Shown: positions 2,613-58,019 of the stretch, piece after piece
Layout of the letters: the number at the start of each line of letters is the position of its first letter
Position numbering within the stretch: the stretch's first letter is position 1
Source: Mya arenaria
Taxonomy: Eukaryota > Mollusca > Bivalvia > Myida > Myidae
Length of the DNA stretch: 64,000 bases
Assembly: GCF_026914265.1 (NCBI RefSeq)
Contig: NC_069125.1
Coordinates: forward strand, 74,277,546-74,341,545
Direction: 5' to 3'
Program-made: the position numbers and the translations under genes
Notes under the pieces: generated by a model
The model's database searches: none
Seen by the model: only the letters and a program-made list of their open reading frames with translations
Told to the model about the DNA's origin: nothing

Positions 2613-5600
2613 ATGGTGCGGTTACAAATATCGGTAGTGTTTATGATCATGTTCTTTATTCTGGAATTCCGTGGTCTTTGTGAGTTATTAATTATGCATT
2701 ACTACAATACCAAGTATTTAGACGTATTTAAAGAGAAATATCTTAATTATATATTTAAGCACTTACATTGGCGGACGTGGAATTGTAATTATAGTTATTT
2801 TTTTATGATCTGTACTATTGAAATGGTAAAATATGTGGGCGTTAAACGGGGTTACCGTGTGACAGTGTTATAAACACAGCCGGATTCCTGGTCTTGTGTT
2901 ATGAATGTTGACTTTGAACGCAAAAGACGCAGGTTTGATCCCCATCGTAAAATAAAATACACCACCTAAAACTAGTCACTGTACGAGCCCATGAAACATC
3001 GTAGGGTGACTTTAAAAGGCACTATAAAGGGTGCTTTACAAAATGTTTACGTTGCAGATTCCTTTAATCACTGTTTCGTTTTCACAGCATTTTGGCTTCA
3101 AACGTACTGATTTGATGTCAACACCACTTCCCCAAAGATGTATTTTTAAGTCACACCGGTCAAGCTAAAATGCAGCCTATGAAGAGCTGTCTGACTGAGA
3201 TAAGCGATTTCGCGTATTTCTCTGAGATGTCGACCAAGACCGTTAGGTGGATTTAAAGAGGGGCGCTGCCTTAAATCAGCATCTCGTACTTGCGTTAGCA
3301 TCGAAGCATTGCATTATGTGTGTTGACACGGGTCCAGGATACTGTATAGGATATGAAAACCGGGACATCTGGTACTTAAATTGGCCTCAGAGCATTGCAA
3401 TATGTGTGTTGACACGGCCCCATAATTTTTGTTTGTATAGTGTAGGATGCATGCCACCTAGTACTTCATTTTGGCACAGAGCAATAAGCAATAACTTCAA
3501 CTCCTCTTTCGAAATACACATAGATGCTTCCATCAATGGCCTTGGTGCCGTATCATATCAAGGGCTGCACAGCCGTTAACGCGTCATCGCATACGCAAGA
3601 AGATCCCGTACTAATCAAGAGAAGAACTAACCGGCGTATACATTATAATTTCTTGCATTGTAGTTGGACGTCAGTTTTTTAAGGATAAGCCATAAAAGGT
3701 TTAGTAGACAATACTTCCTTAAACATCATACTTACATCAGCAATATATGCTACGAGATGGACCTCGGCACTGGATCCGTACAACTTTAAACTTTAAGGTC
3801 AGAAGTGGAGATAACATTGTCGTGAATGATGTTTTAATCATTCGTAGTACAACCACATATAGAGACACTTACGATTATAGAACAATACAGAACCATGATG
3901 TAGCTGTATCAACAGTAGTATCGGCCTGGAATGAGTGAACGTTGACAAGAATGTATGTATATGTGTAAGGTGCTTTAGAAGAAAGTCAGCAACCAATACC
4001 TCTGTTAAACATCAACACTACATACCCTAAGAGCTAGTATGAATGACACTTGACCCGTCCAAAGGTTAGAAACCAGACTGCAATAACAACACCAGAAGCA
4101 TTTAACAACAACTTTATTTTGTACTGCATTACAAAGATATTTCATTCAGACCAAGGTTTTTACAGTGTACAAGTGTTTTAAACGAGTAAAGTCCTAATTT
4201 TATCTTTAAATGTTTTTTTTTTTAATAATTATGATTATATTTGGTTACGCATAGACGCGTTTAAAGTAGGCGATAAACGGTTTAAATTATGGAGTTGTAA
4301 GTATTATGGAAATTTTGGATACATTTTTTTCCTGTGAACTTGAAGTATGAGTACGAATTTGTTTAGTGTGGAGTTTGATTTCTGGTGTGGCATTTAGGCT
4401 TTATTGTAGTAGAAGTTTAATGGATGGACGAAATGTCATCCAAAGAACCTGGGGGTATGCAACCCGAACAAATTGTGTATGAAAATAATTTATATTATGG
4501 TACAAGGGGTCTCTCTCTAGATTTAGTGAATTGCACCTTTTGTTTTCAGTAGAACCGGTTTTCTTTTGTAATGCAGACATGTGATTTATTAGAATTATGA
4601 ATTATTTTAACTATGTTTAATCGTTCTAATGAAAAACCAATGTGTTGTATTTGAGCGTTATATTTTTTTATTGGAATTTCGTTTACTTGATGTAATTGTG
4701 TAATAAAGGATTAGCAGGTCTTGAATTGTCTAACTGGTTATGCATGTTTACTTTCATTGTTGTCTACTTATGGTTGGCAGCAGCAGTGTAGCAGATCACA
4801 GTTACAGTGTGGGCTCTTTTCATCATTCTATGATTTATTTACATATACGTATAACCTTGATACAATGTGAAACTTGTTGCAGACTTGTTGTTTAGCGTTT
4901 GTTGTACATGCACTTACTATTTCACAAACATGGATTTAAGATCGCTCGACCTTCCATACTGCCGTCCTATTTAACTTTTTACACATCGGTTAGGAATACT
5001 TGCTACACATCATGCCATAGATTTATATACATATTCGACTGTTCTCCGTAAAGAAGCAACATATTCATGGCCATGCATTGCAACAAAAGGCAGGTACCGA
5101 ACCAGTTGCTACAACATTTGTGCCGAGTTACGACTCATTTCTTCTTGCGAGATTGTACAACAATGTACGACATCGTTTGAACTTCATGTGCAACGTTTGA
5201 GCTCGCCTCGTTTGTTTGAAATTACCGATATACATAAAGAATAATTTTATGGAGATATTGTTCCGTTCAGTTCACGTAATTGGCATAAATTAAAAAGGTA
5301 CATAAGGACACATAATGAACCATGAATTTCATCAAAATGTAAAATTTCTAGATGACGCCGATGACTTTTATGGAGTTTTGAACGTTTGAAATGGTTAAAA
5401 CGAGTTAACGAGTTTTCCCATAATGGTGACCATATTGGGTGACAGGTGTAATTGTCCCCTACAGCACACCATTTATTATTATTATTGTTTTTTTGAGGAA
5501 TTTTGACCAGCTTTGGAAATGGTTAAATCTAGTTGATGAGTTGTTCTCAGTTTGGTAACCTATATAAGTTGGTTTGAACAACAAAACACATTTCTTAGTC

Positions 5601-7432
5601 GAGAAAAAAAGTACGGCCGGAAAAAATATTCCTTCGGCCAGAAGTGTTTTATGGCCAGGAAAATTATCTTCAAACCGGAAAACTCTTCCGGCTGTCCAGC
5701 TTTCTGACTGGATATTTAAAATGAGTATTGTTTCAGCTGGTATTCCGTATGAGCGGGGAGAAGCATTGGCAATGCAGATAGCAGATGAGCTGGCCGACTT
5801 ACTGGAATACAGTAAAGCCACCGAGGCGGCGGACGCGGAAAACCTGGTACGCATAACAAAATGGAATCGGAAACGACTGTTACAGGAGAGGTTGCGCTTT
5901 GGTGAGGTCCTGGACGCCGTATCTGCCGACCAAAGTGACATCCGAAAGGTGGTTCGAGATCGGCAGCAACTGACGGTTAAACACAGACCAAAAAGGTGAT
6001 ACATAATAGTACCAAATACATACTTTGACACAAACTTACTTCACTAAGTCTTATAATGCCGTTATAGTTTTCTTGACCGGAAATTAATAAAACAATTTTC
6101 ATCGTTATCCTTACAACATAGTACAACGTGAAAATGGAATATTCTGGCAAATTGTACCGTTCTGACCTTAAATTCCGATAACGTACGATTTAAACTGGGT
6201 TAATTTATTTTTATTAAATGTCAATTACAACTTGTGTTAATCAATACAAAGGAAACTACAACAACTAGCCCTGTAGTATAAATAGCAAAAGTCCTGTTTT
6301 AGGCACACGGTTAAGGTCTAATATACACTCAAAGAGAGGCACACTTCGAAACAATACAGCATCACAGATGGAGTATACATCAAAACTTATATTTACTTAC
6401 TGTTGGAGTTCACGCGCAACATACTTTGATAAAATTTACCTATTGCGTTTTATCTTTATTAAGGATTGTTGGGATAAGGGTGAGGTTTGTGCACATAAAC
6501 TGGTTTAAACCCCCAGTAAATTTACATTTTACTGACCGTTCCAAGGCGGTACCTAACAATTCTTGATAAACATACCAATTATTTTTATATATACGTAGTA
6601 TTTATTTATGCACTGTGCTGTTTGTAGAGTTTTGTGCTGTTCTATGTTTCTTGTTTGTGATTTTGTGTTCTATGTCTTTGGCGTTTGCCCATTGCCACTA
6701 AACCGGGTTTATGTTTAAACGTTTTGCTACTGAGCATGTTTCTGTAGCTTTTTGCATAAATAATGAGTTCACTTGGGGTTAACTAGTTCTTGAGTACTCA
6801 GCCGCACGATTGTCTTTTCGCCACGGATTGTACAGGGGGAATGTCCACACAAAATCTCCTCCAAAAACTCACCTTTTGACGGACGAACTTATGAAATGTA
6901 GCATACTGTATAGAATTTGAATAATTTTCATACATTTTCGTTATCGTTTACCAAAGCTTCAACGCCATCTGAGGAGCAACTTTATCTCTTCTTCAGAATA
7001 GTTATTAATCTACACAATTATTTGGAATTTGATAAGCTTAACGTTATTTTCGTTAGAAAGTCTTACCCCGATATGCAGTATATAATTGTACCCAATGAAA
7101 GGTTAAATTACTAACCGGGTGTAAGTATGCATATTTTGTTAAAGTGATGTATTTTTTATTGTTATGTTTGTATTAAGTCATTCGGTAAAGAAATTCCAAG
7201 GAAAAAATATATTTTAAAACTTCAATCTTGATTCCTACCACGATTTTAAGAACAGCGTACAGCCACTCAGGTTAACTTTAAATTAAAATAGGATATCATG
7301 TTAAACCTGATTGAACATTCAGACTTCTTTTAACCCCTGTTTGTATTCTCATATGTTGTTTTCTCTCTTAGGGCCTGTACAATCCCAGGTTGGTGTGGTT
7401 CAAGCGGCAAGAGAACCGGCAACGGCAAATGA
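2613..7432 (+). CDS. putative secreted peptide precursor, gene 1 (3 exons)
   Basis: Predicted exons are 2613-2679, 5737-5995 and 7372-7432, giving 128 residues. Exon 1 encodes a hydrophobic signal-peptide-like start (MVRLQISVVFMIMFFILEF) and ends at GTGAGT in phase 1. Exon 2 follows tttgtttcag-like sequence, enters in phase 1 and encodes a helical charged propeptide (GEALAMQIADELADLLEYSK, then Arg/Lys-rich). It exits in phase 2 at CCAAAAAG/GTGATA, a weak donor. Exon 3 follows ttttctctcttag. The splice completes an Arg codon, making R-P-K-R, a furin/prohormone-convertase-type site, followed by ACTIPGWCGSSGKRTGNGK and a stop. The peptide has two Cys five residues apart, which could form a ring, and a GKR amidation/cleavage signal. 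Both intron phases are shared with genes 2 and 3. The family is unrecognised; neuropeptide or hormone precursor is inference. An AATAAA lies 165 bp past the stop. Confidence 0.62.
3480..3935 (+). mobile_element. degenerate Ty3/gypsy-type pol remnant (RNase H region)
   Basis: At about 3509-3570 the plus strand encodes FEIHIDASINGLGAVSYQ, matching the start of the gypsy-type RNase H domain (DAS..GLGAVL). After a stop, RVIAYARR and then FLAL appear where the family has 'IAYASR...' and 'EFLAL'. Near 3750-3830, ATRWTSALDPYNF and then, one frame over, VRSGDNIVVNDV correspond to the end of RNase H. Stops and frame changes show it is dead. It lies in intron 1 of gene 1. No LTRs were seen. Confidence 0.65.
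3940..5736. other. intron 1 of gene 1, remainder
   Basis: AT-rich intronic sequence with no coding motif or obvious repeat, ending in the acceptor atgagtattgtttcag at 5736. A 190-codon open frame on the minus strand (5459-6031) is the antisense shadow of exon 2. Confidence 0.45.
6624..6757 (+). repeat. dispersed ~135-bp repeat, copy 1
   Basis: Nearly the same sequence (starting 'gtagagttttgtgctgttct', with 'ctttggcgtttgcccattgc') recurs at 59213-59350. There it is an insertion relative to the duplicated loci at 29.95 and 35.94 kb, so it behaves as a small mobile or filler repeat. It lies in intron 2 of gene 1. The class (SINE or non-autonomous DNA element) was not determined. Confidence 0.75.
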
Positions 7433-11442: not shown

Positions 11443-11459
11443 GCCTTTCGATGAAATAT

Positions 11460-15883: not shown

Positions 15884-15884
15884 A

Positions 15885-17620: not shown

Positions 17621-17625
17621 TTCTC

Positions 17626-18390
17626 AAATGATAGGTTGACTACCTGAATGATGGGGCGCCTGCTTGAATGACGGATCGGCGACTTGTATGATTGATCGGC
17701 TACATGTTTGATTAGTCGGCTACATGTATGATTGATCGGCTACATGTATGATTGATCGGCGACTTTTATGATTAATCGGCTACATGTTTGATTTGTCTGC
17801 TACATGTATGATTGATCGGCTACTTGTATGATGAGTCGGCTACTTGTATGATGGGTCAGATACTTGTATGATGGGTCGGCGGCTTGTATGATGAGTCGGC
17901 TACGGTTATGATTGGTCGGCTATTTGTATGATGGGTCGGCTACTTGTATGATGGGTCGGCTACTTGTATGATGGGTCGGCTACTTGTATGATGGGTCGGC
18001 TATTTGTATGATGGGTCGGCTACTTATATGATGGGTCGGCTACTTATTTGATGGATCGGTTACTTGTATGATGGGTTGGCTATTTGTATGATGGGTCGGC
18101 TACTTATATGATGGATCGGTTACTTGTATGATGGATCGGCAACTTGTATGATGGGTTGGCTATTTTTATGATGGGTCGGCTATTTGTATAATGGGTCGGT
18201 TACTTGTATGATGGGTGGGCGGTTGGTGTGATGAGTCGGCTACGTGTATGATGGATCGGCTATTTGTATGATGGATCGGCAACTGGTATGATGGGTCGGC
18301 TATTTGTATGTCGGGTCGGCTACTTATATGAAGACCGGCTACTTGTATGATGGATCAGCTACTTGTATGATGGATCGGCTACTTGTATCG
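17626..18390 (+). repeat. 20-bp minisatellite, about 38 copies
   Basis: Tandem copies of cggctacttgtatgatgggt with frequent variants (gatcggctacatgtatgatt on the left, more homogeneous in the centre). There are no spacers, so it is not a CRISPR. The last unit runs straight into the ATG of the pseudogene's first exon at 18391. Confidence 0.95.
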
Positions 18391-19299
18391 ATGGTGCTAA
18401 CGATCATGCGCGTTATCCTGAAATTCCATGGTCTCGGTGAGTTATTTATTACCCGTTACACATACCTGAAAAGGTCTAACAACGTAAGAAATAGTTAAAA
18501 CATATTCAACAATTGATTAATTTTGTTTTTTATTGTTGGCATGTCTGTTTATATTTCACTTGCATAGAACATGAAATACGATTCTGGCCCATGTTGTCCG
18601 ACGTAGTCATTCCGGCTTAATATTCGCTACCTAACTTCCTCTTCGATTTTTTTACCAGACTTCCGCACAATTCCTATGGGCATACCAGTTTGTACAAATC
18701 CATAAACAGCAATGTTATACCTTTCCCTTCAGACATATAGTGTTTCTTATTAATTTTTTACAAAATCTCTTCGAATTTGCCAATGTTTATATGAATAGTA
18801 TATCGAACTGCCAGGTCGCATTATTCAGTTTGTAATTGACCTTTAAAAAGTCAATTTATGACCAAGTGTCTGTATAATATAATAAGTTTATGGTGAATTA
18901 GGATAATATATGTAATAAATCTTATTGCTACTGTAACATCAGAGTCAGAACATTTTCCAGTCAGTATACCAGGCAGATTTTAAAGCCTATTTTGAATGTA
19001 TTCTCTGAAAGGTGTGCTTCTCAATAATATGTAAGGAATATGTTTCATACTTAAAATAATGCGCCTTTCTTCATTTGGTTTTCAACGTGAGCGCGGTAAA
19101 GCTCTGGCCAGGCATATAGCAGACGACCTAGCTTTCCTCCTGGAGGACAGGGAAGCCTAGCATGCCTGACCTAATTGGATCGGATATGACGGCTACAGAA
19201 GACGTTGTGAGTAGCCGAGGCCTAGTCGGGTGATCAGATCGACATCCAGAAGGAGGTCCAATATCTGCAGGACCTGACTGACTAACAAATGGCGAACAG
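18391..19299 (+). pseudogene. inactivated paralogue of gene 1 (exons 1 and 2)
   Basis: 18391-18436 encodes MVLTIMRVILKFHGL and ends G/GTGAGTT in phase 1. It matches the second half of gene 1 exon 1 in sequence, donor and phase. 19075-19299 matches gene 1 exon 2: GFQRERGKALARHIADDLAF aligns with GIPYERGEALAMQIADELAD. The 3' end matches too and stops at a CAG/GTAG donor. The acceptor that is ttcag in gene 1 is ttcat here. A stop follows REA, about 29 codons in, and the exon is 34 bp shorter. No terminal exon was found; the 51-bp minisatellite begins 55 bp later. Homology is read directly; loss of function is inferred. Confidence 0.65.
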
Positions 19300-19354
19300 G
19301 TAGAATGAAAATTGAAAAAAAATGTGTCTTTGTATGTATCAAGGTGTTGGTTCA

Positions 19355-22468: not shown

Positions 22469-25400
22469 ATGGATGGATCAAATACCCTTGTATTTCTTGG
22501 AACATTGTGTGGCTTAGTTGTGGGCAAGTATATTATAGATTAAGAAAGAAATATATACCATCTTTTTTTACAAAATGTTGTTTAAAATTTGCTGTTTAAC
22601 TGCTACAAAGTTTACTTACAATCTGTAGAGCTCTCACGGCTTGTGAAAGGTACAACACACACTTACCTTCCTTCTGTACGTGTTTTCATTTGCGTGAATT
22701 TTAAAACACAAATATTTTATCAGTTTCGTCTGAATTACAATTTGCGAGTTTAATGGAATAAAATGGATTTAAAAAGATTTTCCTATTTTTTAGGAGTCAA
22801 AGCCTTGTAATGTTATGAGAGTAGCTGATAGAACCTCTTCGCTCTCACCCCTTGAGTGCGGATCACGCAAATAGTTTTGCCCCGACAATATGTTTGCAAT
22901 GTCAAGTCAATGCTTAACGCTAAGTCTACTGTAGCTTATCGGATTTATAAGTCAAAACATTAAATTTACAATAATACAAATCCAGAAAAAGTTGGATCCT
23001 TAAACCATTTTGATAAAAAAAATGTTGAAGAATGGTGAATGGAATAGAGCTAAACAAAAATTGACACATTACTCCATATTTGCTCTTTACAATGAGTTTA
23101 TGGTTTATAATTAAGTTTAAGAAAAGGTTTGATGTTTTTTTCATATATTCTTAATTATGGATCATAATTTTTCGATTACCATCTAGTAAAAGACATCTAG
23201 TTAATTCATAGCACATTTATGGGATCAACACTGTCAAAAAATATCAACTTATCTGCGTTTTATGAATAGTTATGCAGGACTCAATGCAAGTTTAGCGAAG
23301 AAAATTGGCATCAACGATAAATTCTTTTGACAATACTATTTTGATTCATTTTTTACTCCCATTACCATTCTTTACATAAAGGATACTAATGATATTGACA
23401 TATAATTATTTGCGCTCCCTGATTTCTTCAATATATTGATCAAGTCTTCAATACAGTGTCCACTCTGTGTGCAACATTTATTTTCAAAGTCCTTTATTGA
23501 TACTATTATTAACAGTTTTATCGATCATGACACATTATTTATACATTAATATCTAACACCATTAACCAATTTATAATGAGCAATGGGTTCGAAGATCCTC
23601 TTGATTTTTTTATCTTGCTAAAGTATTGATCCCTGACAATGTCACAATGCTGATGCAAAACCTTGATGTAGTGTCCGTGACACAGACAACTTATTTTCAT
23701 AAAATTTTACTTTGCTATTCGAGGTTTATGTGGAGTTGATAACAAGAAGTGCAATACACCGAGGGTTATTTCCCAGTGTTATTTAGTTAAGGTACACTAA
23801 CTGATAACCAAAACAATACAAGCACATTGTTTATCATTTTGAATTTCTTATAAATTTCTAAAGATATAAATGAGAAATATTGCAAACGCAAACATGTCTA
23901 AAAAAAACCTGAAGCGTCTGACTAAAATCACTTTAGACTATGAAAAAGAGGATAAGGTACATAACTTCCTATGTAAAGTTAATACCATTGGAAGACGCTC
24001 ATGTTTTACCACAGTGCAACAAAGTTACTCAAAATACAATTGAAATGGTGAGAGCTTTTGTTTTTAAATTCATCACAAATAGAAGTCAACTGAATTGAAA
24101 ACTACCATATGCCTACTTTGTATTACCAGCCTGTCATTAACTTTAAAAACAATATCATGGCGGTTTAGTGAGCCGGAATGAGCGTAAATAAAGTCAAGGT
24201 TTCCATCGTTTATACCCCACGTGACCAAAAAAAGAACGACGACATTCTTCAGTTTTTTTCTGCAATATAAACTATATTCTGCACTTTAAACTTTGTGATT
24301 TTATGGCACTTTAAAATCGTTTACCTTAGTACAAACTTAAGTTAAGTTTTCATATAGAAGACAGTTTTGTTTGTCATCCCTCTAGCTAAGCCTGTTTTTT
24401 TTTTATCGCAGTGTGTGTAGGTACCAGTGGCATCAGTGGCACTAAAAATGACTTGATCAGGGATTTGGATGGAATGCTGGAAGGAGACGAGAAAAAGGCG
24501 GCAGATGGAGCCATCAGCCTTCACGATGAAGACACCATGGATCGGCTGGCGGCAATGCGGATGGCCCAGGCAACCGTGGGCGGCTCTTTATTCGGGGACA
24601 GAAGGGCGGGTCATGCGGAAGAAGAACCAAAAAGGTATATTCCAGGAGGGCCATAATGGCCCTACATCGCCTACCTGGGTAAATATTTAAACCTTTGTTT
24701 TTTTTTATGAGACTGAATGAGTTTAATAGTTTATGACAGTGCAACCAGGAATTAAACTGTGATCGAGTATTGTTAAATGTTGTAGTTGTTAAGGTCATCC
24801 AAGCAAAAAAGTAGGTCAAAATGTCACTGTAAAGGTAATCCGAGGACAAGATTGAAATTTGTTTACAAAACTAAAGACATGGTTTAAAACTCATCGCTGA
24901 AGCTTGAAAAATAAGAAAGTAGGTCAAATTTTCACAGTTTAGGCCATCCGAGGACAACATTAACAATTGTTTTTAAAACTATTCACATGGTCAATTTTTC
25001 ATGCTTCGAAATAAAAAAGTGAGTCAATACAGGTGGGGCCAGCTTTGACCTAGGGGCATAATTTGAAGAAAACTTGGTAGAGGGTTATCAAATAACATAA
25101 CATAACATAACATAATGTTTATTGTAGTACAAGGCCTCCGGCCCAAAATACAAATATCAGAGATTTACATAATAGTGGTGACAGAGTTATGCATATATAA
25201 GTAGTATAAATATAAAACTGTATAATACAAATATATCAGGAAAATATAACTATGATAGAAAACTATCGATCACGAATGAATTCCTCTCGAATAGCAAAAG
25301 CCTTTGCAATATAGTGTGCAACCAATATAACACTTCGCCTATTGTAGTCTGATAATAGTTTGTAAAACAAGTGAAGCGTTATCATTCTATTTTCAAGTTG

Positions 25401-29770: not shown

Positions 29771-29949
29771 GACAGGCCATTAAGAAACAAAGCCTGCATA
29801 TACTGAGGATTGTCAATCGGCTTTGCTACATAGTGAAATGGCGACTGTAGTTTCCATGTTGGCCCTAAATCGCTAACCTGAGTGAAAGTTGTTTTTATGA
29901 GAATGCATGAGTGTGTTGGTTAATTGCAATACAAACAATGATTTAACTT

Positions 29950-33367: not shown

Positions 33368-33537
33368 TTAAGTACCTGGAATCACGGTGACAATGAAGTT
33401 AGCAGCGAAGGGGTCCAGAGGAACAGCGTACTCCGAAACCTTTACAAAATAATGGCCATGCAAAGAAGGCCGCATGACGCGCAAGCGGGTATATACAGAC
33501 GTGGTCTCCCATCCTGGATGTACAAGTCCAAAAACCA
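33368..33537 (+). other. exon-like segment 'e3', unit B
   Basis: Duplicate of 27391-27560 with the same acceptor, donor and open frame. Confidence 0.4.
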
Positions 33538-34510: not shown

Positions 34511-34610
34511 GTACGGCTGGTGGTTCGGAGACGGCGGTAAAGTAATAGATGGCGCTCAAGAGGACGACGGTCCAATAATCGACAATACCGGAAACATCCT
34601 CTCCCGATGA
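34511..34610 (+). other. duplicated terminal exon ([10 protein letters not shown]), unit B
   Basis: Intact copy of the gene 2 terminal exon with acceptor tgttttcag, entry phase 2 and the same stop. No signal-peptide or propeptide exon was duplicated with it. It can only be expressed by splicing from gene 2 exon 2, about 9.9 kb upstream, or be silent. The protein sequence is unchanged from unit A. Confidence 0.6.
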
Positions 34611-37430: not shown

Positions 37431-38127
37431 TGTTGTATTTAAAAGTAGAGTGATTTGTAAAACACTGCCATCGCAAAATAATGCAGCCATTATGTGTAGT
37501 TTAAGATTATAACAAATGTGCCTTCTTGTATGTTTATGATTTCAATGATCGTTTAAGAGCTGTTCGACTATCATTGGGGGCCTATAAAACCTAGTTTTCT
37601 ACGATTAAATTGTATTAAGAACAGACGAAAAAAGACGTCTTTGTTTCAAATTTTGACCAACTATCTAAGTAGAATCCGTTTCAGATAAACTTTTTGAATT
37701 TTATGAAATGTTGACAGAAATTGCTACATTTTCAACACTGTTTTTTGCTCGCATCAAAACATATTCCACACGTAAAGTAATCAATTGTATTTAGACATGA
37801 CATCATACATCAGAATTACCCAATAAAATGAGAATAACTAAAACTATTAAGGCTGAAAAACTATGAAAGTAAAATAATGTAAAAATGTTCAATAGAGTGA
37901 AAAGATCGGAGTGATTTCAGTGTATCCGCGTTTAAAAGGGATAGTATTTAAATGATCATTTTATGGTTCCCGATCGTCATTTCACCATAACACCAATCGG
38001 TTGATACGGATCAGTATGAGTAATATATTCACTGAGGTTTTAAAAGCTTCCGTTTTGAATTTAGTTTGTCACATTAATCCTGGTATCACATTTGAATCAT
38101 TGAAAATATACGTTCAAGTCAAATAAA

Positions 38128-41100
38128 ATGGATGGATCAAATACCTTTGTATTTCTTGGAATATTGATTGGCTTAGTTTTGGGCAAGTATATTATAGATT
38201 AAGAAAAATAAACCATCTTTTTTACAAAATGTTGTTTAAAATTTGCTGTGTAACTGCTGCAAGGTTTACTTACAATCTGTAGAGCTCTCACGGCTTGTGA
38301 AAGGTACAACACACACTTACCTTCCTTCTGTACGTGTTTTCATTTGCGCGCATTTTAAAACACAAGAACTTGTCGAAACAAAAGTTTCGTATAAATTAAA
38401 ATTCGCGAGTTTAATGGATTAAAATGTATTTAAATACAACATCAAAGTTCCAAGCTATAAAGTTCGGTATAATTTAACAAATAGTAACCTTTTCGGACCT
38501 CGTTGCCGCTGAGTATGGTGAGCTCCTACCTCGTCCAAAAACGAACGGACCATTAGCGAGAGAGGCCCTCTGTGTTTTGTACTTTTTCTTATCATAATAT
38601 ATCTACGGCATTTGTAGAATAGACGTTGTTAAAGAAATCTCTCTTTAGGAGTCAAAGCCAAAAGGTTCTACGTTATGTTATGAGAGTAGCTGATAGAACC
38701 TCTTCGCTCTCACCCCTCCGAGTGCGGATCACGCAAATAGTTTTGCCCCGACAATATGTTTGACATTGTTAAGTCAATGCTGAACTGTAGCTTATCGGAT
38801 TTAAAAGTCAATTCATTAAATTAACAATAATACAAATCTAGAGAAAGTTTGATCCTTAAAATATTTTGATAAAAAATCGTTGAAAATGGTGACTGGAATA
38901 AAGCGAAAAAAAGACACATTACTCCATATTTGCTCTTTACAATGAGTTTTTTAATTTTATAATTATTAAGTTACAGAAAAGGTTTGATGGGATTTTTATA
39001 TATTCTTAATTATGGAATAATCAGAAATTTTCGATTACCATCTAGTCAAATACATCTAGATAATTCATAGCACATTTATGGGATCAATACTGTCAGAAAA
39101 TATCAACTTATCTGCGTTTTATGAAGAATTATGCAGAACTCAATGCTAGTTTTGCGAAGAAAAGTGGCATCAACGATAAATTGTTTTGAAAATACTTTTT
39201 TGATTCATTTTTTACTCCCATTACCATTCTTTACTTAATGATAACTAATGATATTGCCATATAATTATTTGCGCTCCCTGATTTCTTCAATATATTGATC
39301 AAGTCTTCAATACAGTGCCCACTCTAGTGCAATATGTATTTTCAAAGTTCTTTATTGGCACTATTATTAACAATTTTATCGATCTTGACACACTATTTAC
39401 ACAGAGACTTGAATGTATCATGCAGATCCCTACAGCTGCCCCTGGTTTACTTATAATAGTTGCCTGTGGCCTCAGCTGGGTAAAATCAGTCTTGATCCTG
39501 TAAATGAAAAAATACAACGTTTTATGGGCCGCTTATCACGCCATATGGGACACAATACAACTATTAATCATGATTTGTCGACGATATTTCAACATTCTAT
39601 AAAATCTAAAAACCCACTAGGGTTATATAATTGACAAGAGAAGAAACTCTCCAAAATACACGTTGTCATGAAAACGGTAAACGTCCAGTTAAAACATGAA
39701 TTTTATAGTTAATATACCAATCCTAAGCAAATCACTTTGTTCTGCGCAAAGAATAATCATTTTTACATCGAATTGACACAACAATCTTACCGGTTATTCC
39801 AAATTGTATCAGGAATCCGATTAAAAATATACACACTATCGCCAAATTTCGCCATACACAGGTCTTACCGACTAATTCTACTGCTGTTATGAGCGCCTGA
39901 ATGATCCCGATGGTATTATCGTATCGTCGGGATCATTTCGGAGCGATAGTTTATAATGTATAACCAATTTATAATGAGCACTTATTTCCAAAGGGGAGGA
40001 CGTTATTTCGTTTCATGGAAACATTAAGTGAGAAAAATGTTTCATGGCAAACAAAATGGCGGATTTAGAATCAAAAGTACCGAATCTGGTAATGATTACA
40101 AAAAACGTGTTGATTTTATCCACATCTTTTCATATTTTCTCGGCAGATATGGCATACCTGTGCATGTTGTAACTGTGCATGTATATATCCCTATTTTCCA
40201 AACTTCATGGTTATTTCACGACTTGACACGTTTCCAGGCCGATGTTTTGTACCTTAATCCCCCATTTTGTTTATTGCAGGCACATTACCCACATTTTGTT
40301 GAAATGCTATTTTGATTCTAAATCCGCCATTTTGTTTGCAATGAAACATTTTTCTCACTTAATGTTTGCATCAAACGAAATTACGCCCTTCCCCTTGTAT
40401 TTCTGGGTTTGAAGATCCTCTTGATTTTTTTTTATCTTGCTAAATGCAAGATGCAAAACCTTGATGTAGTGTCCGTGAAACTGGAGTGTCCGTGACACAT
40501 ATAAAAGTTTTTCCCCATCATTTTTTTCTTATTTTCATAAAACTTTTCTTTGGTATTCGAGGTTTATATGTAGTTGATAACAAGAAGTGCAATACACCGA
40601 GGGTCATTTTCCAGTATTATTTGTTTAAGGTTCACTAACTGATTACCAAAACAATACAAGCAGAATGTTTATCATTTTGAATTTCTTACAAATTTCTAAA
40701 GATAGAAATGAGAAATATTGCAGACGCAAACAATGGCCACGTCTGAAAAACCTGAAGCGTCTGACTAAAGTCACTTTATACTATGGCAAAGAGGATAGGA
40801 TACATAACTTCAAATGTAAAGTTAATACCATTGGAAGAAGCTCATGTTTTAACCCAGTGTGACAAAGCTACTCAAAATGCAATACAAATGGTGAGAGCTT
40901 TTATTTTCAAATTCATCACAAATAGGAGTCAAGTGAATTGAAAACTACCATATGCCTACTTTGTATTACAAGCCTGTCATTAACATTTCAAACGATATAA
41001 TTGCGTTTTAGTGAGCCGGAATGAGCGTAAATAAAGTCAAGGTATCCATCGTTAATACTCCACGTGACCAAAAAAAAATATTTTTCACTTTTGTCTGCAA

Positions 41101-44100
41101 TATAAACTGTATTCTGCACTTAAAACTTTGTGATTTTGTGTAAATTAAATCATTTATGGATATATTGCACTTTTAAATCGTTTGCCTTGTGAACGCACTA
41201 TTATGTGTTAAGACTGTTTTATTATTTATCCCTCTAGCTAAGCCTTTTTTATCGCAGTGGGTGTAGGTACCAGTAGAATCAGAGGCACTAAAGATGACTT
41301 GATCAGGGATTTGGATGGGTTGCTGGAAGGAGACGAAAAAAAGGCGGCAGATGAAGCCATTGGAGCCATCAGCCTTCAAGATAAAGACACCCTGGATCGG
41401 CTGGCGGCAATGCAGAGGGCCCAGGCGGACGTGAACGGCTCTTTAATTGGGGGCAGAAGGGCGGGTCATGCGGTAGAAGCACCAAAAAGGTATATTACAG
41501 GAGGGCCATAATGGCCATACATCGCTTACCTGAGTGAAATTTTTAAACCTTTATTTTTTTATGAGACTGATTGAGTTAATAGTTTATGACAGTGGAACAG
41601 TTTAACTATGATCGAGTATTGTCAAATACTGTAGTTGTCATAGTCATCCAAGCTAAACATCAAAAATTAGAAAGTTAGTCAGGAATATCCAAGCAAAATA
41701 TTGATATTTGCTTTCAAAACTGTACATCTGCTTTATTTATTGCTGTAGCTTCAAAAATACGAAAGTAGGTCAAAATGTCAGTATAAAGGTCATCCGAGGA
41801 CAACATTGATTTTTTTCAAAACTAAAGACATGGTCCAAATGCATTGCTGTAGCTTGAACAATAAAAAGAAGGTCAAAACGTCACAGGTAAGGTCATCTGA
41901 GAACAACATTGATATTTGTTTTCAAAACTATTCACATGTTCTAAATTTCATGCTGTAGCCTTGAAATAAGAAATCGGGTCAATAGCGGTGGGGTCAGCTT
42001 TGACCCAGGGGCATAATTTGAGAAAACTTCTTGGTAGAGGGTAATCATATGATGCTACATAATAATGTCTTGGCCATGTGGTTTGAAAAAATAAAAAAGA
42101 GTTAAAGATCTAGGAAACTTGTTAACCCCAAGGAGTGGGCAGTTCTGTTAACAGGGAAATAATTTGAACAAACTTGGTGGAGGACCGCTGATGCTACATA
42201 CACATGATCAAGGGGAATGGGACTAGCGGTTTCAGACAAGTACATTTTCATTTTGTTTCTTATATAAGTGTTAAGGAAACTTGTGAACCCCGGTGCGGAG
42301 ACAGATTGGACCTGAGGGAGCACGATTTAAACACACTTGATAGAGAACCAGTTTATGATGGAACATACAAAATATCAAGGATCTGAGTCTAGTTGTTTCA
42401 GCCAAGTAGATGTTCAAAGACTTACCTACATAAGTGTAAAGAAAATTTATGAATGATGTAGCCAGTTTTGTTCGTAGGGGCATCATTTGAACAAACTTGG
42501 TGAAGGGCTATTGTATAATGCTACATACAAACTATCAAGGCCGACCCTGGTCCTAGCGGATTCAGACAAGAAGATTGTCAAAGATTTTTCTTAAAGTGAC
42601 ACTCTTATTCAAAATCAATACATACACTTGTATAACAAACATAAATTTTGACTGATTAACCTTGAACTGCTTACTAAATAATGCATTTATAAAATATATT
42701 AATTACTGATAACAAGATTGTTAACATGCATTTAATAGCAAAATGCGCAAAAATATTAAATGATTGGTGAATGCTAAAAGATTAATTGTGGTCTACTATA
42801 GTCTCATAAAGTAGAAATAACGTATTTTATGCGCAATTTTCTTTCAAATTGAACTCGGTATCATTCACAAGAACCATTGTTTTCGACATTTATTCATCCT
42901 TTTTGGAATATTAAAACAATATTATCAATTGTGGTAAATCTGATTTTGGAGCAAGAGTGCATCTTTAAATAAGTCTATGGGAAGTCTCTGACCCCGGGGC
43001 ATAATTTGTCAAAACTTGGTGGAGAACCAATGTACAATGTTGCATTCAATATAGTGAGCGTCTGTGCCTAGCGTTTTTGAAAAGAAGGTTTTAAAGTTTT
43101 TCTTATATAAGTCTAACTTGTGACCGCCGGGTGGGGCCAGTTTTGACCCCAGGCGCACGATTTGATCTTGATAGAGGAATACTACATGATGTTACATACA
43201 TGTTGAGGGCCCAGCAGTTTCAAGGACAAGGATATTTTCAAAGATTATTCTATATGAGTATGTAAGAAAACTGTGACCCTGGGGCGGGGCAAGTGTTGAC
43301 CACAGGGGCATATGAGCAAACTTGGTAGAGATCCACTAGACAATGCAACACGCCACATATCTAAGCTCTAGGCCTAATGATTTCTGCCTAGAAGAAGTTA
43401 TTTCTTTCGGTTGCCATAGAAACCAGAGGTCTGCATGGAATTCAGGTGTTTGTACAAATTTGAATGGGCACCATCCAAGTAACATCCAAGTGAAGTTTCG
43501 ACAGACAAATGACGGACGACGGACGGTTGGCGACGGGACAAGCTCATCATGAGCACTTCGTGCTTCTCTTATTAATGTTAATAAAATGTTTGCACTTAAA
43601 CAACGAGTGAATGATCAACTTAAACATAAATGTCAGAGAACCTTTTCTCATAGCACTGGAAAAAGAAAATTGACAGCTCCTTCGTTTGCTATAATTTTGC
43701 GTAAAATACTAGAAAAACTCCGAAAATAAGCATAAAAGAAAAATTTGTTCGTGATCATAGAAAAACTATATTTTCACTTGTTGCTCCGCCACTGATTAAA
43801 ATATGTTATTCTATGACACTCGTGAAATTAAATACGATTTTACACTGAAATCATGTGCTAGTTCTTGGGCAAGGTTGAGGTCAAGTTCTGTGACGTCGGC
43901 GATGTAACGCCACCTATCCCGTGCATGTACACTGCATTCATATACGCTGTGTATTTTTACGTTATTTTACGTGGTATTTATACCAGAGCTTAGCAGTTAA
44001 CATTCGGATGTGTTTGAAATAGTTCGTGTCAAAATATAATATACTATTGCTTTGGAAACATTTGGGTGTAACACTTTGAAAAGTCTAAAATCTTCGTCCG

Positions 44101-48665: not shown

Positions 48666-48699
<34 letters not shown>

Positions 48700-51600
48700 G
48701 TCCGTCCGTCCGTCCGTCCGTCCGTCTGTCTGTTTGTCTCTCTGTCTGTCTGATATTTAGATTCTGAAATATAGAATAAGTGTGAATTTTAGTGTGTGTC
48801 ATTGTTATTGACATTATTATCATGGTTACAGATCGTGCTGGTGGTGCGGGACTAGGGGGAAAAATTTCAAGCCAGCAAAACCAAAACATAAACCTATCAA
48901 GAGGGTATGGAATATATACTTTGCTGGTATTATTTAAAAGGATGTTCGCTGCTGATTGAGAATAAACTTATAAATGAAAATGTCAATCTTGCATAATAGA
49001 TAAAATTACATGTATCAATAAACCGTTCATGGTTGGACGAAAAGCAATTTTCCTAGACAAAGTAAAACGCAATATTGACCTGTCTTTTTATTGACCAGAA
49101 ACAGATAAGCATATGACGTCATAATAATGATTGAAAAAATAATCACTTTTAAAATGCCATATTGACCTGTCTGTTTAAAGACCGGAAATAATTTAGCATA
49201 TGACGTCATAATATATAATGCGGTATCATGTAATAAAAGTGATTTACTTATTAGCTGTAAAATATGCAGCTTATAAGTGAATAATTGTATAGTATTTGTT
49301 ACAGTGTATGGTTTGTCTTTAAACGTCAATTTTGCAATATTCCCCAGCGTGTTATTATAGTACGTCTTGTTTTTCTACATTTTTATAAGCTTTCAAACGG
49401 TACTTTTGGAGTACCAGTTGCTTTTATGATTGAGTGAAACCTTAAATTATAATGTTAAAATTCAGAAAATTTGAAAGTTCATTATGCTTCTAATTAATTA
49501 CCAGTGTTTGAAGTCGTTTCCTTTTTAAGATACTATTCTTCATTTAAGCTTTATGTTTAATGACGATATTCCTCCGTTTTCCTGTATAAATCACAAATTT
49601 CGTGTCGAAGTCGGTGGTTGGAGACAACACGCTGTAATACAAATTGTATTATCAGGGTGAGGAATCACATTACTTCCAAAATTTCAACTTGACGACATTT
49701 TGTAGAACGATGCAACGCTGAATTTTTAGCCAAGGATTGCATAATACAAATACAATCAAATCTAAATTTCACACATGTAGAAACAGATAATAGCACACTC
49801 TTTTATAGGCTTAGAAATATTTTCATACTTTTCCGTTGAAAAAGTTATTTAGAAATCAACGTCACTTGTTTGTTTAAATCGGTTGTGACACGTGGTGACC
49901 CTTATAAGAACCCATTTGAAGTCACGTGATTCCTCAACCTGGTTGCACGGAAACACTCATATACAAAAATATATTTCAGTTAAGTACCTGGAATCACGAT
50001 GACAATGAAGTTAGCAACGAAGTGGTCCAGAGAAACAACGTAGGCCTATACAAAATAATGGCCGTGCAAAGAAAGCCGCTTGACGCGCAAGCGGGTATAG
50101 ACAGACGTGGTCTCTCATCCTGGATGTACAAGACCAAAAACCAGTACGTTATCGTAGTTTTGACTACATGTTTCGTTTATTTTTGTTCTTATTTCCTAAT
50201 CAGCGATGTATTTATTTATTGTCTGTGGTTTTATTAACGTGAAAGTTTGAGTGAGAAAAAGACAACTTGTAACTAAGTTTCTGCTCTCTTTTTCCATTTA
50301 TTATGCTTTATTGAGTTGATTGTTGTTGTTTTTAATATCAGTACCGGTTTATTGTTTTTCATTTTATACGTAAATATATCTAAAATAACGTATATCACAA
50401 GTTTTTGAGCATTTGTTGTTAAAATCGGCTTAAGTGATAGGCCCGGGTGGTTTTCTATGTAATCGTTAATTGCGTTCAGTTATCAATTATTGTTTCCGTC
50501 TGCTTTGCTTGTATCCCTAAACAAGGTACATAAATGATTGTTATTCAATTCAATTCAATATTTTATTAGCACAAACATTCAAGTTCATCGCCTTTACTTC
50601 TGGCGGTAACATTAATTTACATACATGAGAAGAGCATGATATTATAATACACAGATTAATAACACTATTAGGATATTGATAATTCACGTAAAAATGTATT
50701 CCTGACGTACAACTCCATTCACTTATTTCATTGACCTCATGACCTTGACACACACACCTTAAGACTTATGACTGACCACTATATTTGTGGTGGATACTAG
50801 TTTTTTCTAACAAAAAACGAACAACATTTTGAGAAATACAAATACTGTATTTGCATAAGCATCTGGACAGTCAACTGAATTAAAAGAACGGGCACTGAAA
50901 AAATAATAATCTGATGGCCCTTATAAACTCTATACGTATGGTTAAAACAAACATTCATAAGTTTACAACAAACAACAATCGTTACAGTCCCAAACTCAAA
51001 GACACTGATAACCGTTCATGTATATCATCTTTGATATAACCATCCTTTGCACTTTCACTAACACACCGACCATGTCTTTTAAAGAGTCTGTCTTTAATAC
51101 CATTGTTTGCAGCAACAGTAGCACCACCCGATCTTAAAGAATGAAGGCAGTATTTACTCACATCGTTTACATGCGGCTATAAAGCCTCTAGAAAAACTTC
51201 TCTAAGATTGGTGTTAGACATTTTCTTATTTGCACTTCTAGTTTTGTAACCGTCTTTCGTTAAACATATATTGCAAAACAAATAATCGTTATCTGACAAT
51301 TTGCTCCAAAATATTAACTTTCTAACATTCTCGACTGGACACAACTTTGTATTTGTTTTGGCAATCATTACCCAAGCACCATCACGATATCTATCAGTCT
51401 TGCTCCCCTCCATAAATATAGCCATATATGAACATTGAAATACAATATCACACACATGAATGCTTAATAACTCAGAACTTCTCAAAAAAACCTGCGAAAG
51501 CTACCAAAAAAGCGCAAATAATACGCTGGCTTGTTTATACAATGTGTCGTATATACCATTTAAAATATTAATATCTATCGGTTCTTTCTTCTTTTTAGGC

Positions 51601-57600: not shown

Positions 57601-58019
57601 ATATTTCACATAACAATGAAAACCGAGAGTTTATCATGTCCGATTTATTATGATAACAAAAAGGAATATACGGACTCTACAAATTGCCATTTCTGAAAAA
57701 TATCAAGTGTCCGACTTAAATGACGTAAAGTTTTGAAAAAAATAATAGAGTGCATAACTTCGAATGTAAAATTGATATCATAAAGTTCATTTCTTTACCC
57801 ATGTTCAATATAGCTACTCAAAATTCTGTTAAAAACGGAAAACAGATTACCTTGGATATTGGTATTTCGAATAGTCATTGTCGTAAAAGAAACAATGACA
57901 GGCCTATCCGTGTTTTCAGGTACGGCTGGTGGTTCGGAGACGGCGGTAAATTTATAGATGGCGCTCAAGACGACGACGGTCCCATAATCGACAATTCCGG
58001 AAACATCCTATCCCGATGA
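38128..58019 (+). CDS. putative secreted peptide precursor, gene 3 (3 exons, long intron)
   Basis: Predicted exons are 38128-38182, 41258-41489 and 57920-58019, giving 128 residues. It is a paralogue of gene 2. Exon 1 encodes MDGSNTFVFLGILIGLVL and shares the GC donor (G/GCAAGTAT, phase 1). Exon 2 follows ttttttatcgcag and encodes an acidic propeptide ([37 protein letters not shown]) ending A-P-K-R in phase 2 at AAAAAG/GTATAT. The terminal exon encodes [20 protein letters not shown] and ends NILSR-stop. Compared with gene 2, exon 2 has three extra codons and no frame break. The last intron is about 16.4 kb because it holds a DIRS-like element, LINEs, a mariner and other repeats; splicing over it is inferred. 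Expression and peptide function unknown. Confidence 0.55.
39395..39955 (+). other. insertion specific to the gene 3 locus
   Basis: About 560 bp absent from the matching place in the gene 2 locus (23534-23565). It ends with a hairpin (aatgatcccga...tcgggatcatt near 39900-39940). One open frame (YNSCLWPQLGKISLDPVNEK) is unrecognised. Origin unknown. Confidence 0.5.
39984..40403. mobile_element. MITE-like element with ~90-bp inverted repeats
   Basis: The left end 'atttccaaaggggaggacgt' through 'gtgagaaaaatgtttcatgg' and 'aaaatggcggatttagaatc' is mirrored on the right by 'gattctaaatccgccatttt', 'atgaaacatttttctcactt' and 'cgcccttccccttgtattt'. The gene 2 locus (about 23583) lacks it, giving a natural empty site. 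No transposase is inside. I could not settle a target-site duplication. Confidence 0.8.
40733..40890 (+). other. coding-like segment 'S', gene 3 intron 1
   Basis: Encodes LKRLTKVTLYYGKEDRIHNF then [19 protein letters not shown]. It lies about 370 bp upstream of exon 2, as in gene 2. Confidence 0.5.
41690..42000 (+). repeat. ~105-bp tandem repeat, gene 3 locus
   Basis: Same family and same position (after exon 2) as 24780-25085. Confidence 0.8.
42000..43570 (+). repeat. clusters of the ~150-bp interspersed repeat
   Basis: Units with 'cataatttga...acaaacttgg' and 'tttcagacaagaag' at 42000-42560, and again at 42960-43570. The second cluster ends with 'gacggacgacggacggttgg'. Between them (42560-42960) is AT-rich sequence with nothing recognised. 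Confidence 0.75.
43590..43850. repeat. palindromic dispersed element, copy 2
   Basis: Shares 'ttgacagct', 'aaaactccgaaaataagcat' and the hairpin core 'catagaaaaactatattttc' / 'tctatgacactcgtgaaatt' with 12640-13030, but is shorter and more degraded. Confidence 0.7.
43850..44481. other. no gene recognised
   Basis: AT-rich sequence up to the mariner insertion; nothing supportable. Confidence 0.45.
44482..45485 (-). mobile_element. mariner-like DNA transposon, defective
   Basis: Flanked by TA on both sides, with terminal inverted repeats cgagggctgttcgt (left) and acgaacagccctcg (right). The minus strand encodes IDDIRHHQDNAPSQRTTESL then INFLGFDMLEHAP, the mariner transposase catalytic region (HxDNAP..., followed by '..L.HPPYSPDL'). 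One frame over are AVFCSLRE-like residues and WVDRINMCMNCIGEYF at the C-terminus. The body is about 1.0 kb against the usual 1.3 kb, the frame is shifted near 44865, and the N-terminal region is eroded. It is inactive. Confidence 0.88.
45486..46060. other. no gene recognised
   Basis: AT-rich sequence with short open frames only. Confidence 0.4.
46061..46840 (-). mobile_element. LINE reverse transcriptase, C-terminal half, degenerate
   Basis: On the minus strand, in order but in shifting frames: TFETLSGQALNAMFKLN, HFNYCKYLLGVKAQTQNN, YEELGRTALLTKR and NHVWISQGVEDYNKSILS then QRVTDVFIQNW. This is the thumb and connection region of a CR1/Jockey-like LINE. It ends abruptly at 46061. Confidence 0.75.
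46840..47190 (-). mobile_element. LINE 3' coding fragment (zinc-knuckle end)
   Basis: Minus-strand pieces YKYLKEHFGIEFYLDVLPKK, SSHKLHIETGRYGRNRIERA and CILCNSNDIEDEYHFVIICP represent the very C-terminus of a LINE. In an intact element this would follow, not precede, the segment at 46061-46840, so two LINE copies lie head to tail. Confidence 0.75.
47190..47819. other. no gene recognised
   Basis: AT-rich; no coding signal that I can support. Ends in a polypyrimidine tract and acceptor (atattttgtccttag). Confidence 0.4.
47820..48021 (+). CDS. candidate terminal exon, unknown gene
   Basis: After tatattttgtccttag, the frame entered in phase 2 is open for 66 codons (LNSLCKDISDAFPLKQIYSF ... GTSETRCACNC-stop), with a Cys cluster at the end. 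AATAAA lies at 48088-48093, 67 bp past the stop. Entry phase 2 matches the exit of gene 3 exon 2, but that join would give P-K-S and lose the K-R site. It lies just left of the diverged locus copy and has no counterpart near genes 1 or 2. It may be an alternative last exon or chance. Confidence 0.3.
48650..48752 (+). repeat. (CTGT/CCGT)n microsatellite
   Basis: Runs of ctgt and ccgt tetranucleotides at the position occupied by (atcc)n in units A and B. Confidence 0.95.
49980..50143 (+). other. exon-like segment 'e3', third copy
   Basis: Same acceptor (atatttcag), donor (CCA/GTACGT) and frame as 27391-27560. The only indel is a six-base in-frame deletion. Encodes LSTWNHDDNEVSNEVVQRNN ... KPLDAQAGIDRRG ... 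SWMYKTKNQ. Most substitutions change amino acids. Confidence 0.4.
50434..50900 (-). other. insertion edge with LINE-like 3' tail
   Basis: Start of the 6.8-kb insertion. At 50544-50575 'tcaattcaattcaatatttt' followed by attagc resembles a LINE 3' end (tandem pentamer tail plus AATAAAA on the minus strand). No coding region is attached that I can identify. Confidence 0.4.
50982..51911 (-). pseudogene. tyrosine recombinase of the DIRS-like element
   Basis: Integrates the circular DNA copy in this class. The N-terminal half starts near MNLLPDLLRHSRAHSTDTKY. The catalytic half has RSSELLS (first Arg), HSLRSGG (His-x-x-Arg box), KRHGR and AKDGYIKDD (nucleophilic Tyr), ending at 50982. The frame is broken near 51490-51505 (A/T-run slippage region) and by a TAG near 51179, so this copy cannot make a full enzyme without recoding. 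Confidence 0.85.
51912..52326 (-). other. DIRS internal spacer
   Basis: Between the methyltransferase-like ORF and the recombinase. The minus strand has only a 61-codon frame with no recognisable motif. Confidence 0.5.
52327..52752 (-). CDS. DIRS methyltransferase-homology domain ORF
   Basis: 141 codons. The start ATG overlaps the RT stop as ATGA (52752-52749), a stop-restart or minus-one arrangement. Contains QVDWFASYYNAKLPKFYSRF, DAFAENW, FVPPIAVIHRVI and GILVCPCW, the block that follows RNase H in DIRS-like elements and is usually related to Dam-type DNA methyltransferases. The frame is intact. Whether it has enzymatic activity is unknown. Confidence 0.7.
   Translation of the reverse strand: MIFERFGQLQVDWFASYYNAKLPKFYSRFWNPNCSGIDAFAENWKGHIGLFVPPIAVIHRVIMNMANDKARGILVCPCWKSFLFWTFLCKNGVFIDEVVDWFDIPIEKHYYVKCKNGKGMFGNTDLKFRMLALQFDFRKGN
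52749..54569 (-). CDS. DIRS reverse transcriptase / RNase H ORF
   Basis: 606 codons open. The first ~115 overlap gag in another frame and are probably not translated as shown; RT homology starts near ENENSDVTLKDEYDYRRF. Motifs: LILDLREVNKHLW, MIKFDLTSAYHFVQI, VVMPFGLSSACYLW and the catalytic FQDD (about residue 350; Phe-Gln in place of the common Tyr/Phe-x pair). RNase H residues are SDAS (about 515), Glu in WRELV (about 550) and YTDNQG (about 575). The frame is intact, suggesting recent insertion. Confidence 0.9.
   Translation of the reverse strand: MIVKMRPRFTELRAELSRRNALQGVRGVILLTLVSLCSRPFLREVGEVVFVHTGPSATLPVTVQDPFRFSATTQSQASADHPRPAHASLVERPPTSGGTAPTFGQVPKATSLPVPENENSDVTLKDEYDYRRFTHDFYEYEQGQKHMIVKGRLIDHLEFWQSIGTNDYILDIIKNGYMIPLYSEPEQIFCKNNKSAILEPEFVTEAIEDLLDRCLIEKCSNPTYVVNPLTVSVQISGKKRLILDLREVNKHLWKQSVKYEDIKTALALIQKGCFMIKFDLTSAYHFVQIYEPHTKFLGFSWNDKGGNPVYYRFVVMPFGLSSACYLWTKLCRPLIKKWRGEGLLVTMFQDDGLGCSSTYESALRLSSHIKSDLLRSGFIPNAKKCIWTPVQNMEFLGCDLDTLEGTISVPKRRLSKANSAIKELIVSANKKVRVSVRKVASTVGQLISMTVVIGNISQIMTRYLSADILNASHWNSYIFLSDESQQQLLFWQQNLVLANNKMFEQLKTCTKVVYSDASDIGYRGYEINTVNGVSQGVWSQEESIKSSTWRELVAVYRVLLSLVHFVRHQKVKWYTDNQGVRSIAVKGSMKRELQDVAYQYLMSFRK
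54208..54972 (-). pseudogene. DIRS gag-like ORF with one internal stop
   Basis: Starts MTSESILSTEDTSCGDSNPI. An early helical stretch (LSTILAELSSLKQEV) precedes a basic linker (RALKKKRSSRGKGR), a Gly-rich part and a zinc knuckle CFACGETTHFRRNC (C-x2-C-x4-H-x4-C). A single TAG at 54607-54609 interrupts an otherwise continuous 254-codon frame. The 3' part overlaps the RT ORF. Confidence 0.8.
55370..56700 (-). mobile_element. LINE with internal deletion
   Basis: Minus strand: VDDVIKAINSLKRGKSPGCD, then SWTKRILIPVPKKGDTNIVD, NYRGIMLTSMFSKIFS, the palm block CAFVDFKKAFDLVYRNGIW, GVKQGETLSPLLFIMFINDM and catalytic FADDTVL (194-codon open frame 55736-56320). The thumb is missing: at about 55737 it passes directly to the C-terminus (RLRCSAHKLAIEEGRF, CIFCQMNVVEDEFHFVLVC, 55540-55650). 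The 3' end has AATAAA and a T/G-rich tail near 55330. Frameshifts lie at about 56320 and 56510. Confidence 0.85.
56750..57195. other. right edge of the insertion, nothing recognised
   Basis: AT-rich, no coding motif. Locus homology resumes at about 57196 (gggaaataagaagtggggtg). Confidence 0.5.
57715..57870 (+). other. coding-like segment 'S', third copy
   Basis: Encodes HNFECKIDIIKFISLPMFNI then TQNSVKNGKQITLDIGIS. Here alone the frame runs on without a stop into the terminal exon of gene 3 (open 57750-58019). An unspliced reading through the acceptor therefore cannot be excluded. Confidence 0.5.

Follow-up and report, generated by a model that had tools for sequence, protein, structure and literature searches.

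The window analysed here, a stretch of 64,000 nucleotides from the soft-shell clam Mya arenaria (a bivalve of the order Myida), carries three genes and one broken gene copy that we interpret, with a probability of about 0.72, as a tandem family of secreted peptide precursors, this figure applying to the precursor reading and not to any one role of the peptides. Such a family had been proposed in a preliminary description of the same DNA and, as a reading of gene structure, the proposal is well supported. Gene 1 has three exons and genes 2 and 3 have five each (Table 1), and in all three genes a phase-2 intron splits the Arg codon of a P-K-R site, exactly as first described. The family is best read as fast-evolving and perhaps lineage-restricted and, judging from the predicted sequences, its peptides are probably disulfide-ringed and amidated.

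Table 1. Exons of the candidate peptide precursor genes and of their duplicated or broken copies (positions count from the first letter of the window).
Feature	Position	Strand	Remarks
Gene 1 exon 1, signal-peptide exon	2613..2679	+	Exit phase 1, donor GTGAGT; identical to MAR_010358 residues 1-22
Gene 1 exon 2, propeptide to P-K-R	5737..5995	+	Exit phase 2
Gene 1 exon 3, ACTIPGWCGSSGKRTGNGK and stop	7372..7432	+	Predicted peptide ACTIPGWCGSS-amide, the putative amidation being read from G-K-R
Broken gene 1 copy, exon 1-like	18370..18435	+	54.5% identical in tblastn (E 0.09) and 75% over 100 nt in blastn (E 1e-12)
Broken gene 1 copy, exon 2-like	~19047..19301	+	59.5% identical in blastn over 289 columns (E 3e-12)
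Gene 2 exon 1, signal-peptide exon	22469..22523	+	GC-AG intron, donor GCAAGT
Gene 2 exon 2, propeptide to P-K-R	24412..24634	+	Exit phase 2
Gene 2 exon 3, missed in the preliminary description	26423..26498	+	Located by tblastn; present in MAR_010340 (P0002)
Gene 2 exon 4, missed in the preliminary description	27391..27560	+	Phase 0 in, 2 out; present in MAR_010340
Gene 2 exon 5, Cys-less W-W-x-G-x-x-G-K exon and stop	28532..28631	+	
Second copy of gene 2 exon 3	32400..32475	+	6-kb tandem duplication
Second copy of gene 2 exon 4	33368..33537	+	6-kb tandem duplication
Second copy of gene 2 exon 5	34511..34610	+	6-kb tandem duplication
Gene 3 exon 1, signal-peptide exon	38128..38182	+	GC-AG donor
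Gene 3 exon 2, propeptide to P-K-R	41258..41489	+	Exit phase 2
Gene 3 exon 3, SCWWCGTRGKNFKPAKPKHKPIKR, missed in the preliminary description	48832..48904	+	Present in LOC128232715 (P0001)
Gene 3 exon 4, missed in the preliminary description	49980..50143	+	Phase 0 in, 2 out; present in LOC128232715
Gene 3 exon 5, Cys-less W-W-x-G-x-x-G-K exon and stop	57920..58019	+	

Joined by phase, the exons of gene 1 encode a product of 128 amino acids, which a protein search showed to be identical, at 128/128 residues, to the Mya arenaria protein MAR_010358; the exons, the exit phases 1 and 2 and the length of the product are those initially given for this gene. The accompanying statement that no long open reading frame reveals the family is slightly inaccurate, since a 141-aa ORF (5574-5999) includes the propeptide exon of gene 1.

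Gene 3 (38128-58019) comprises five exons encoding 207 amino acids, identical at 207/207 residues to LOC128232715 (P0001), an "uncharacterized protein". About 80 residues of P0001 (gene 3) and of MAR_010340 (P0002; gene 2) were absent from the model first proposed, and tblastn assigned them to two additional exons per gene, flanked by AG acceptors and GT donors, with the phases 2 in/0 out followed by 0 in/2 out. At every junction, genes 2 and 3 have retained an AG acceptor and a donor that is GT or GC. The three-exon design that had been attributed to the three genes thus applies to the whole of gene 1 and, in genes 2 and 3, to exons 1 and 2, the last exon and the phases 1 and 2, but it skips two internal exons. 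The GC donors deserve comment: exon 1 of both genes ends at GCAAGT, and use of the GT found four bases downstream, a phase-2 site, would cause a frameshift. The LOC128232715 protein agrees with the GC donor of gene 3 exon 1. The annotation pipeline is not known to accept a GC donor other than on transcript evidence.

The other deposited models are less complete. MAR_010340 is a partial record that covers exons 2-4 of gene 2 and runs into exon 5, with a different first exon, and the full 207-aa protein of gene 2 is a join made in this analysis that corresponds to no deposited record. The alternative first exon of MAR_010340 (MLTEIATF...) occurs at 22050-22112 and 37708-37770, upstream of gene 2 and of gene 3. 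MAR_010341 skips exons 3 and 4 and reads gene 3 exon 2 in another frame, one that appears to be mispredicted. The last intron of gene 3 harbors retroelement pieces on the minus strand (51501-56320), with RVT_1 matches at 52749-54569 (E 4.9e-15) and 55736-56320 (E 1.1e-23), which may account for much of its excess length over the last intron of gene 2. An imperfect palindrome of 478 bases (60415-60892; 76%) is possibly a fold-back element.

Owing to the presence of exon 3 in the deposited models, the products of genes 2 and 3 contain two cysteines, not none. They had been described as Cys-free, a claim that does not stand: SCWWCG occurs after P-K-R in both proteins, directly in gene 3 (where the peptide of the five-exon model reads SCWWCGTRGK) and after WFK in gene 2. 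The Cys-less W-W-x-G-x-x-G-K peptide sits near the C-terminus of the two proteins and, in the five-exon form, exon 5 is preceded by ...RRGL(S/P)SWMYK(T/S)KNQ, not by K-R. As the main product of genes 2 and 3, the Cys-free peptide was rejected, because it needs a splice that skips two exons of the deposited models.

The kinship of the three genes is best seen in the predicted mature peptides. The gene 1 sequence ACTIPGWCGSSGKR has W-C-G-x-x-G-K in common with the peptides following P-K-R in genes 2 and 3, and the local alignment scores of its core with exon 3 of gene 2 and of gene 3 were reached by 1/5000 and 12/5000 shuffles, respectively, compared with 244/5000 for terminal exon 5. We rejected the exon 5 peptide as the closest kin of the gene 1 core on this count, exon 3 being much closer. 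The preliminary description had also related the genes through a shared peptide; the kinship holds, but the match is to exon 3 and not to the terminal exon, and the W-C-G-x-x-G-K likeness makes this conclusion better founded than the evidence originally offered for it. In the six frames of the window, C-x(0,6)-W-C-G-x-x-G-K was found 4 times, versus 0 times in 200 dinucleotide shuffles, two of the four sites being copies of one exon within a 6-kb duplication. The sites given by a similar scan (7376, 26436, 32413 and 48836) each lie close to the 5' end of an exon with entry phase 2.

The spacers tell less about kinship. Local comparison detected no similarity between the spacer of gene 1 and that of gene 3 (3792/5000 shuffles reach the score) or gene 2 (4888/5000), and in global comparison the score of gene 1 was reached by 232/5000 shuffles with gene 3 and by 1388/5000 with gene 2. 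Exon 5, for its part, resembles exon 3, W-W-x-G-x-x-G-K and the phase-2 start being common to both: the local score of gene 3 exon 3 against gene 3 exon 5 was reached by 0/5000 shuffles, and that of gene 2 exon 3 against gene 3 exon 5 by 5/5000. From these sequences, exon 5 may be a duplicate of the ring exon in which both cysteines were lost.

The following features of the encoded proteins bear on the precursor model. The N-termini are hydrophobic (best 11-residue mean hydropathy of 2.5-3.2), and each precursor possesses only two cysteines outside the signal region, which enclose at least one Trp. P-K-R is present in all three proteins, and at the end of the core stands G-K-R in gene 1, G-K-K in gene 2 and G-K-N in gene 3, the latter not being a dibasic amidation site and thus speaking against the model. 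We infer that exon 1 encodes a signal peptide, which would be removed, and exon 2 a spacer ending with P-K-R, and that a proprotein convertase would cut after K-R. The following exon would thereby supply a short Trp-containing peptide with a single Cys pair, such as ACTIPGWCGSS (gene 1) or SCWWCGTR... (gene 3). The Cys pair would close a small ring, and the G-K-R or G-K-K end would be trimmed and amidated. A C-W-W-C ring would be unusually tight, which speaks against this part of the model. The released peptide would then act extracellularly on a receptor or a membrane.

A pseudogene had been mentioned along with the three genes, without coordinates. A broken copy of gene 1 does occur at 18370-19301, and we do not claim that the two are identical; its exon 2-like part has no single open frame, stops being present in the three-frame translation. 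A 20-bp tandem array of 38 copies (17628-18394) runs into the start of this broken copy, and it may have grown from the broken exon 1, since its repeat unit is similar to the codons with which that exon begins. Another array, of 32 copies of 51 bp (19503-21139), begins some 200 bases downstream of the broken exon 2 and has an open frame on either strand (470 and 476 aa); these ORFs are probably a repeat artefact and no gene. The window also contains a 145-bp tandem array (13196-15787; 18 copies, 87% matches) and a 146-bp dispersed repeat, the two copies of which, 94% identical, are located in the last intron of gene 1 (6621-6766) and downstream of gene 3 (59212-59357).

Genes 2 and 3 are tandem copies, the main blocks of which share 73-93% identity. 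Gene 2 itself contains a 6-kb head-to-tail repeat (25572-31557 and 31557-37539), which may be either a recent duplication or two haplotypes placed end to end. The copied exons 3-5 differ at 1/346 bases and the rest of the repeat at 51/5600 (about 0.9%), figures that give no test of constraint (p 0.37). Between genes 2 and 3, exons and alignable non-exon sequence diverged equally, at 59/609 and 452/4374 positions in six hand-picked blocks (five with exons and one with intron, other alignment blocks being omitted), and at 57/609 and 589/6239 positions in all collinear blocks (14 of 21 BLAST blocks). This comparison leans against seeing constraint, since 609/624 exon bases of gene 2 aligned to gene 3 and only 4081/5539 intron bases did so, the other 1458/5539 being left out. 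The dN/dS ratio of genes 2 and 3 is 1.22 (bootstrap 0.69-2.7), the lowest dN being that of exon 5 (0.048). With this ratio and the equal divergence, purifying selection on the residues is not shown. Exon 3 changed faster than its flanks (12/67 versus 5/95 changed positions; p 0.017), but this comparison is weak and post hoc.

The reading frame behaves differently from the residues. In the MAFFT alignment of genes 2 and 3, the exonic indels were all multiples of three (4/4), as compared with 6/36 outside exons (p 0.002). The BLAST alignment, which covers more sequence, gave 3/5 versus 11/75 elsewhere, apparently because it split one 6-base exonic gap into 5 plus 1. An open frame alone is not decisive, given that about 10% of the runs of a neutral-change simulation remained without a stop. 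Genes 2 and 3 seem to keep their frame while their residues change freely, like young or fast-evolving secreted peptides.

These data allow us to weigh other views of genes 2 and 3. Exons 3 and 4 could be skipped in some transcripts, thereby placing the Cys-free W-W-x-G-x-x-G-K peptide directly after K-R. Exons 2 and 4 share exit phase 2, so the skipping splice stays open, and it yields the in-frame products of 125 aa (gene 2) and 128 aa (gene 3) initially predicted; the likeness of exons 3 and 5 is also in its favor. We nevertheless regard such skipping as unlikely, as both deposited models found with the propeptide in frame (P0001 and P0002) include exons 3 and 4, whereas MAR_010341, which omits them, reads exon 2 in another frame. 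Somewhat more doubtful again is an exon switch, in which the P-K-R exon would have two alternative splice partners, the ring exon (CWWC, amidated) and the Cys-less duplicate of this exon, to produce a cyclic or a linear peptide from the same cleavage site. It is also unlikely, to the same degree as skipping, that genes 2 and 3 represent duplicates in decay or without function, still open because of their youth, or that the 6-kb duplication reflects a haplotype split during assembly. Decay would fit the equal divergence of exons and alignable non-exon sequence and the tenth of neutral simulations that stay open, and a split haplotype would fit the small difference between the two 6-kb copies. 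Against decay, the exonic indels keep the frame (in the BLAST alignment too, if the gap apparently split by the aligner is considered), the splice dinucleotides are kept, and the alignment with gene 3 covers the exons of gene 2 more completely than its introns.

The tandem family of precursors was presented as apparently undescribed, which is half right: four Mya records exist (MAR_010358, LOC128232715, MAR_010340 and MAR_010341), and none has a functional name, as they are called only "hypothetical protein" or "uncharacterized protein". Protein searches returned no relatives outside Mya, the candidates that passed being solely from Mya: 3/39 with the skipped form of gene 3 plus one extra residue as the query, 1/21 in another search, and 2/16 with residues 92-186 of P0001 at E up to 10. 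As the search method relies on shared 5-residue words, distant relatives could escape it, and these results do not prove absence elsewhere. There was no significant match in Pfam (best E 0.087, below the family cut-off; 0 families at E 0.01 for P0001) or in NCBIfam (best E 0.043, far below the cut-off). Searching PDB by sequence likewise gave no significant match (best E 0.56 for gene 1 and 2.7 for gene 2 exon 3; no match at all for gene 1 exon 3), and 0 matches were obtained with Rfam at gathering scores and with a tRNA scan. The AlphaFold models, with a mean pLDDT of 48.7 for P0004 alone and of 38.6 for P0001 with P0002, are too poor to be used.

In the literature, none of the matches listed for Mya arenaria neuropeptides concerned these genes, by title or start of the abstract, and nothing relevant appeared by title among those listed for the Mya genome. 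Searching for the record names or CWWCG retrieved a single article, which, by its abstract, concerns an ecdysone-receptor promoter and is unrelated. The peptide strings of the family gave no match, nor did the combination of contryphan, neuropeptide and bivalve.

The organization of these genes recalls that of other secreted peptides. In the three-exon conotoxin superfamilies (I1, M, O2, O3, P and S), the exons correspond roughly to signal, spacer and mature peptide, the first intron being of phase 1 and the second of phase 2 in most of them (PMC3862624). In the I1 conotoxins, exon 2 lacks only the final 1 bp of the spacer, and it is also reported that the exact intron places vary, exon 2 of one O2 gene reaching into the mature part (PMC3862624). 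The Mya genes resemble these in their phase-1 and phase-2 introns and signal/spacer/mature layout, a likeness of gene structure. They differ from these cone-snail venom genes in belonging to a bivalve, in having two mature cysteines and, for genes 2 and 3, in two extra 3' exons. Clams are not known to possess a venom gland. Contryphans are short disulfide rings with a Trp and five residues between the two cysteines; five residues also separate those of gene 1, and two separate those of genes 2 and 3. According to PMC10501145, the contryphan gene of Conus ventricosus has a phase-1 and then a phase-2 intron within its reading frame; gene 1 shows the same phases, and genes 2 and 3 start in this way, then continue with two further exons.

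A second parallel is found in the CCWamide/agatoxin-like genes, which usually have three exons, with the mature peptide in the last one, and a last intron that interrupts a basic codon after its second base (PMC8557429). Our three genes similarly have a phase-2 intron within a basic cleavage-site codon. The same source attributes eight conserved cysteines and an amidated aromatic end to the CCWamide/agatoxin-like peptides, unlike the two cysteines outside the signal region and the predicted Ser or Arg end observed here (PMC8557429). CCWamide membership was rejected, as it requires eight cysteines in that description (PMC8557429) and there are two in the present case. The oyster GWE, GSWN and WGAGamide families also differ from this family in their descriptions (PMC8398477). 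The shared design, which had been taken as an argument for a single family, is indeed present, but the argument is weaker than it appears, conotoxin (PMC3862624) and CCWamide (PMC8557429) genes being built similarly. The phase-1/phase-2 architecture recurs among protostome secreted peptides and cannot, therefore, prove kinship on its own.

As to what the peptides do, the hormone or neuropeptide role suggested at the outset is not supported specifically by the sequences. The rings could be amidated GPCR ligands released from ganglia as neuropeptides or hormones, a possibility to which we give less than even weight. The spacer, the dibasic site, the G-K-R or G-K-K end and the Cys pair are among the features by which bivalve neuropeptides are recognized in PMC5996578, namely a mono- or dibasic cleavage site, a Gly as amidation donor and a Cys pair, and the design of gene 1 is like that of the CCWamide neuropeptide genes (PMC8557429). 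However, the protein searches found relatives only in Mya, whereas many neuropeptide families are common to molluscs (PMC8398477), and the dN/dS ratio is about 1. About equally likely, and similarly tentative, is that the genes encode secreted defence peptides, the Trp-rich cationic ring exons being freed from the spacer to act on microbial membranes. The charge of exon 3 (+6 in gene 2 and +8 in gene 3), the Trp content and the acidic spacer of gene 2 speak for defence, and so do the tandem duplication, the broken copy and the weak constraint, traits that are common among immune effector families. On the other side, the ring peptide of gene 1 is neutral and its spacer basic, the gene 2 peptide would be only +1 if cut at G-K-K, and the spacer of gene 3 is only -1. 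Altogether, we slightly favor an effector or local signal that is specific to the lineage and evolves fast (in defence, mucosa or reproduction) over a conserved neurohormone.

Mya arenaria is a fishery species and a host of transmissible cancer, and as such it is studied both commercially and medically. Our finding, which by itself overturns nothing, provides a bivalve instance of the three-exon, split-cleavage-codon design, resembling both conotoxin and CCWamide genes, together with a likely exon duplication whose copy lost both cysteines, and, if expressed, the genes would give this clam an uncharacterised set of small secreted peptides, with defined candidates open to synthesis.
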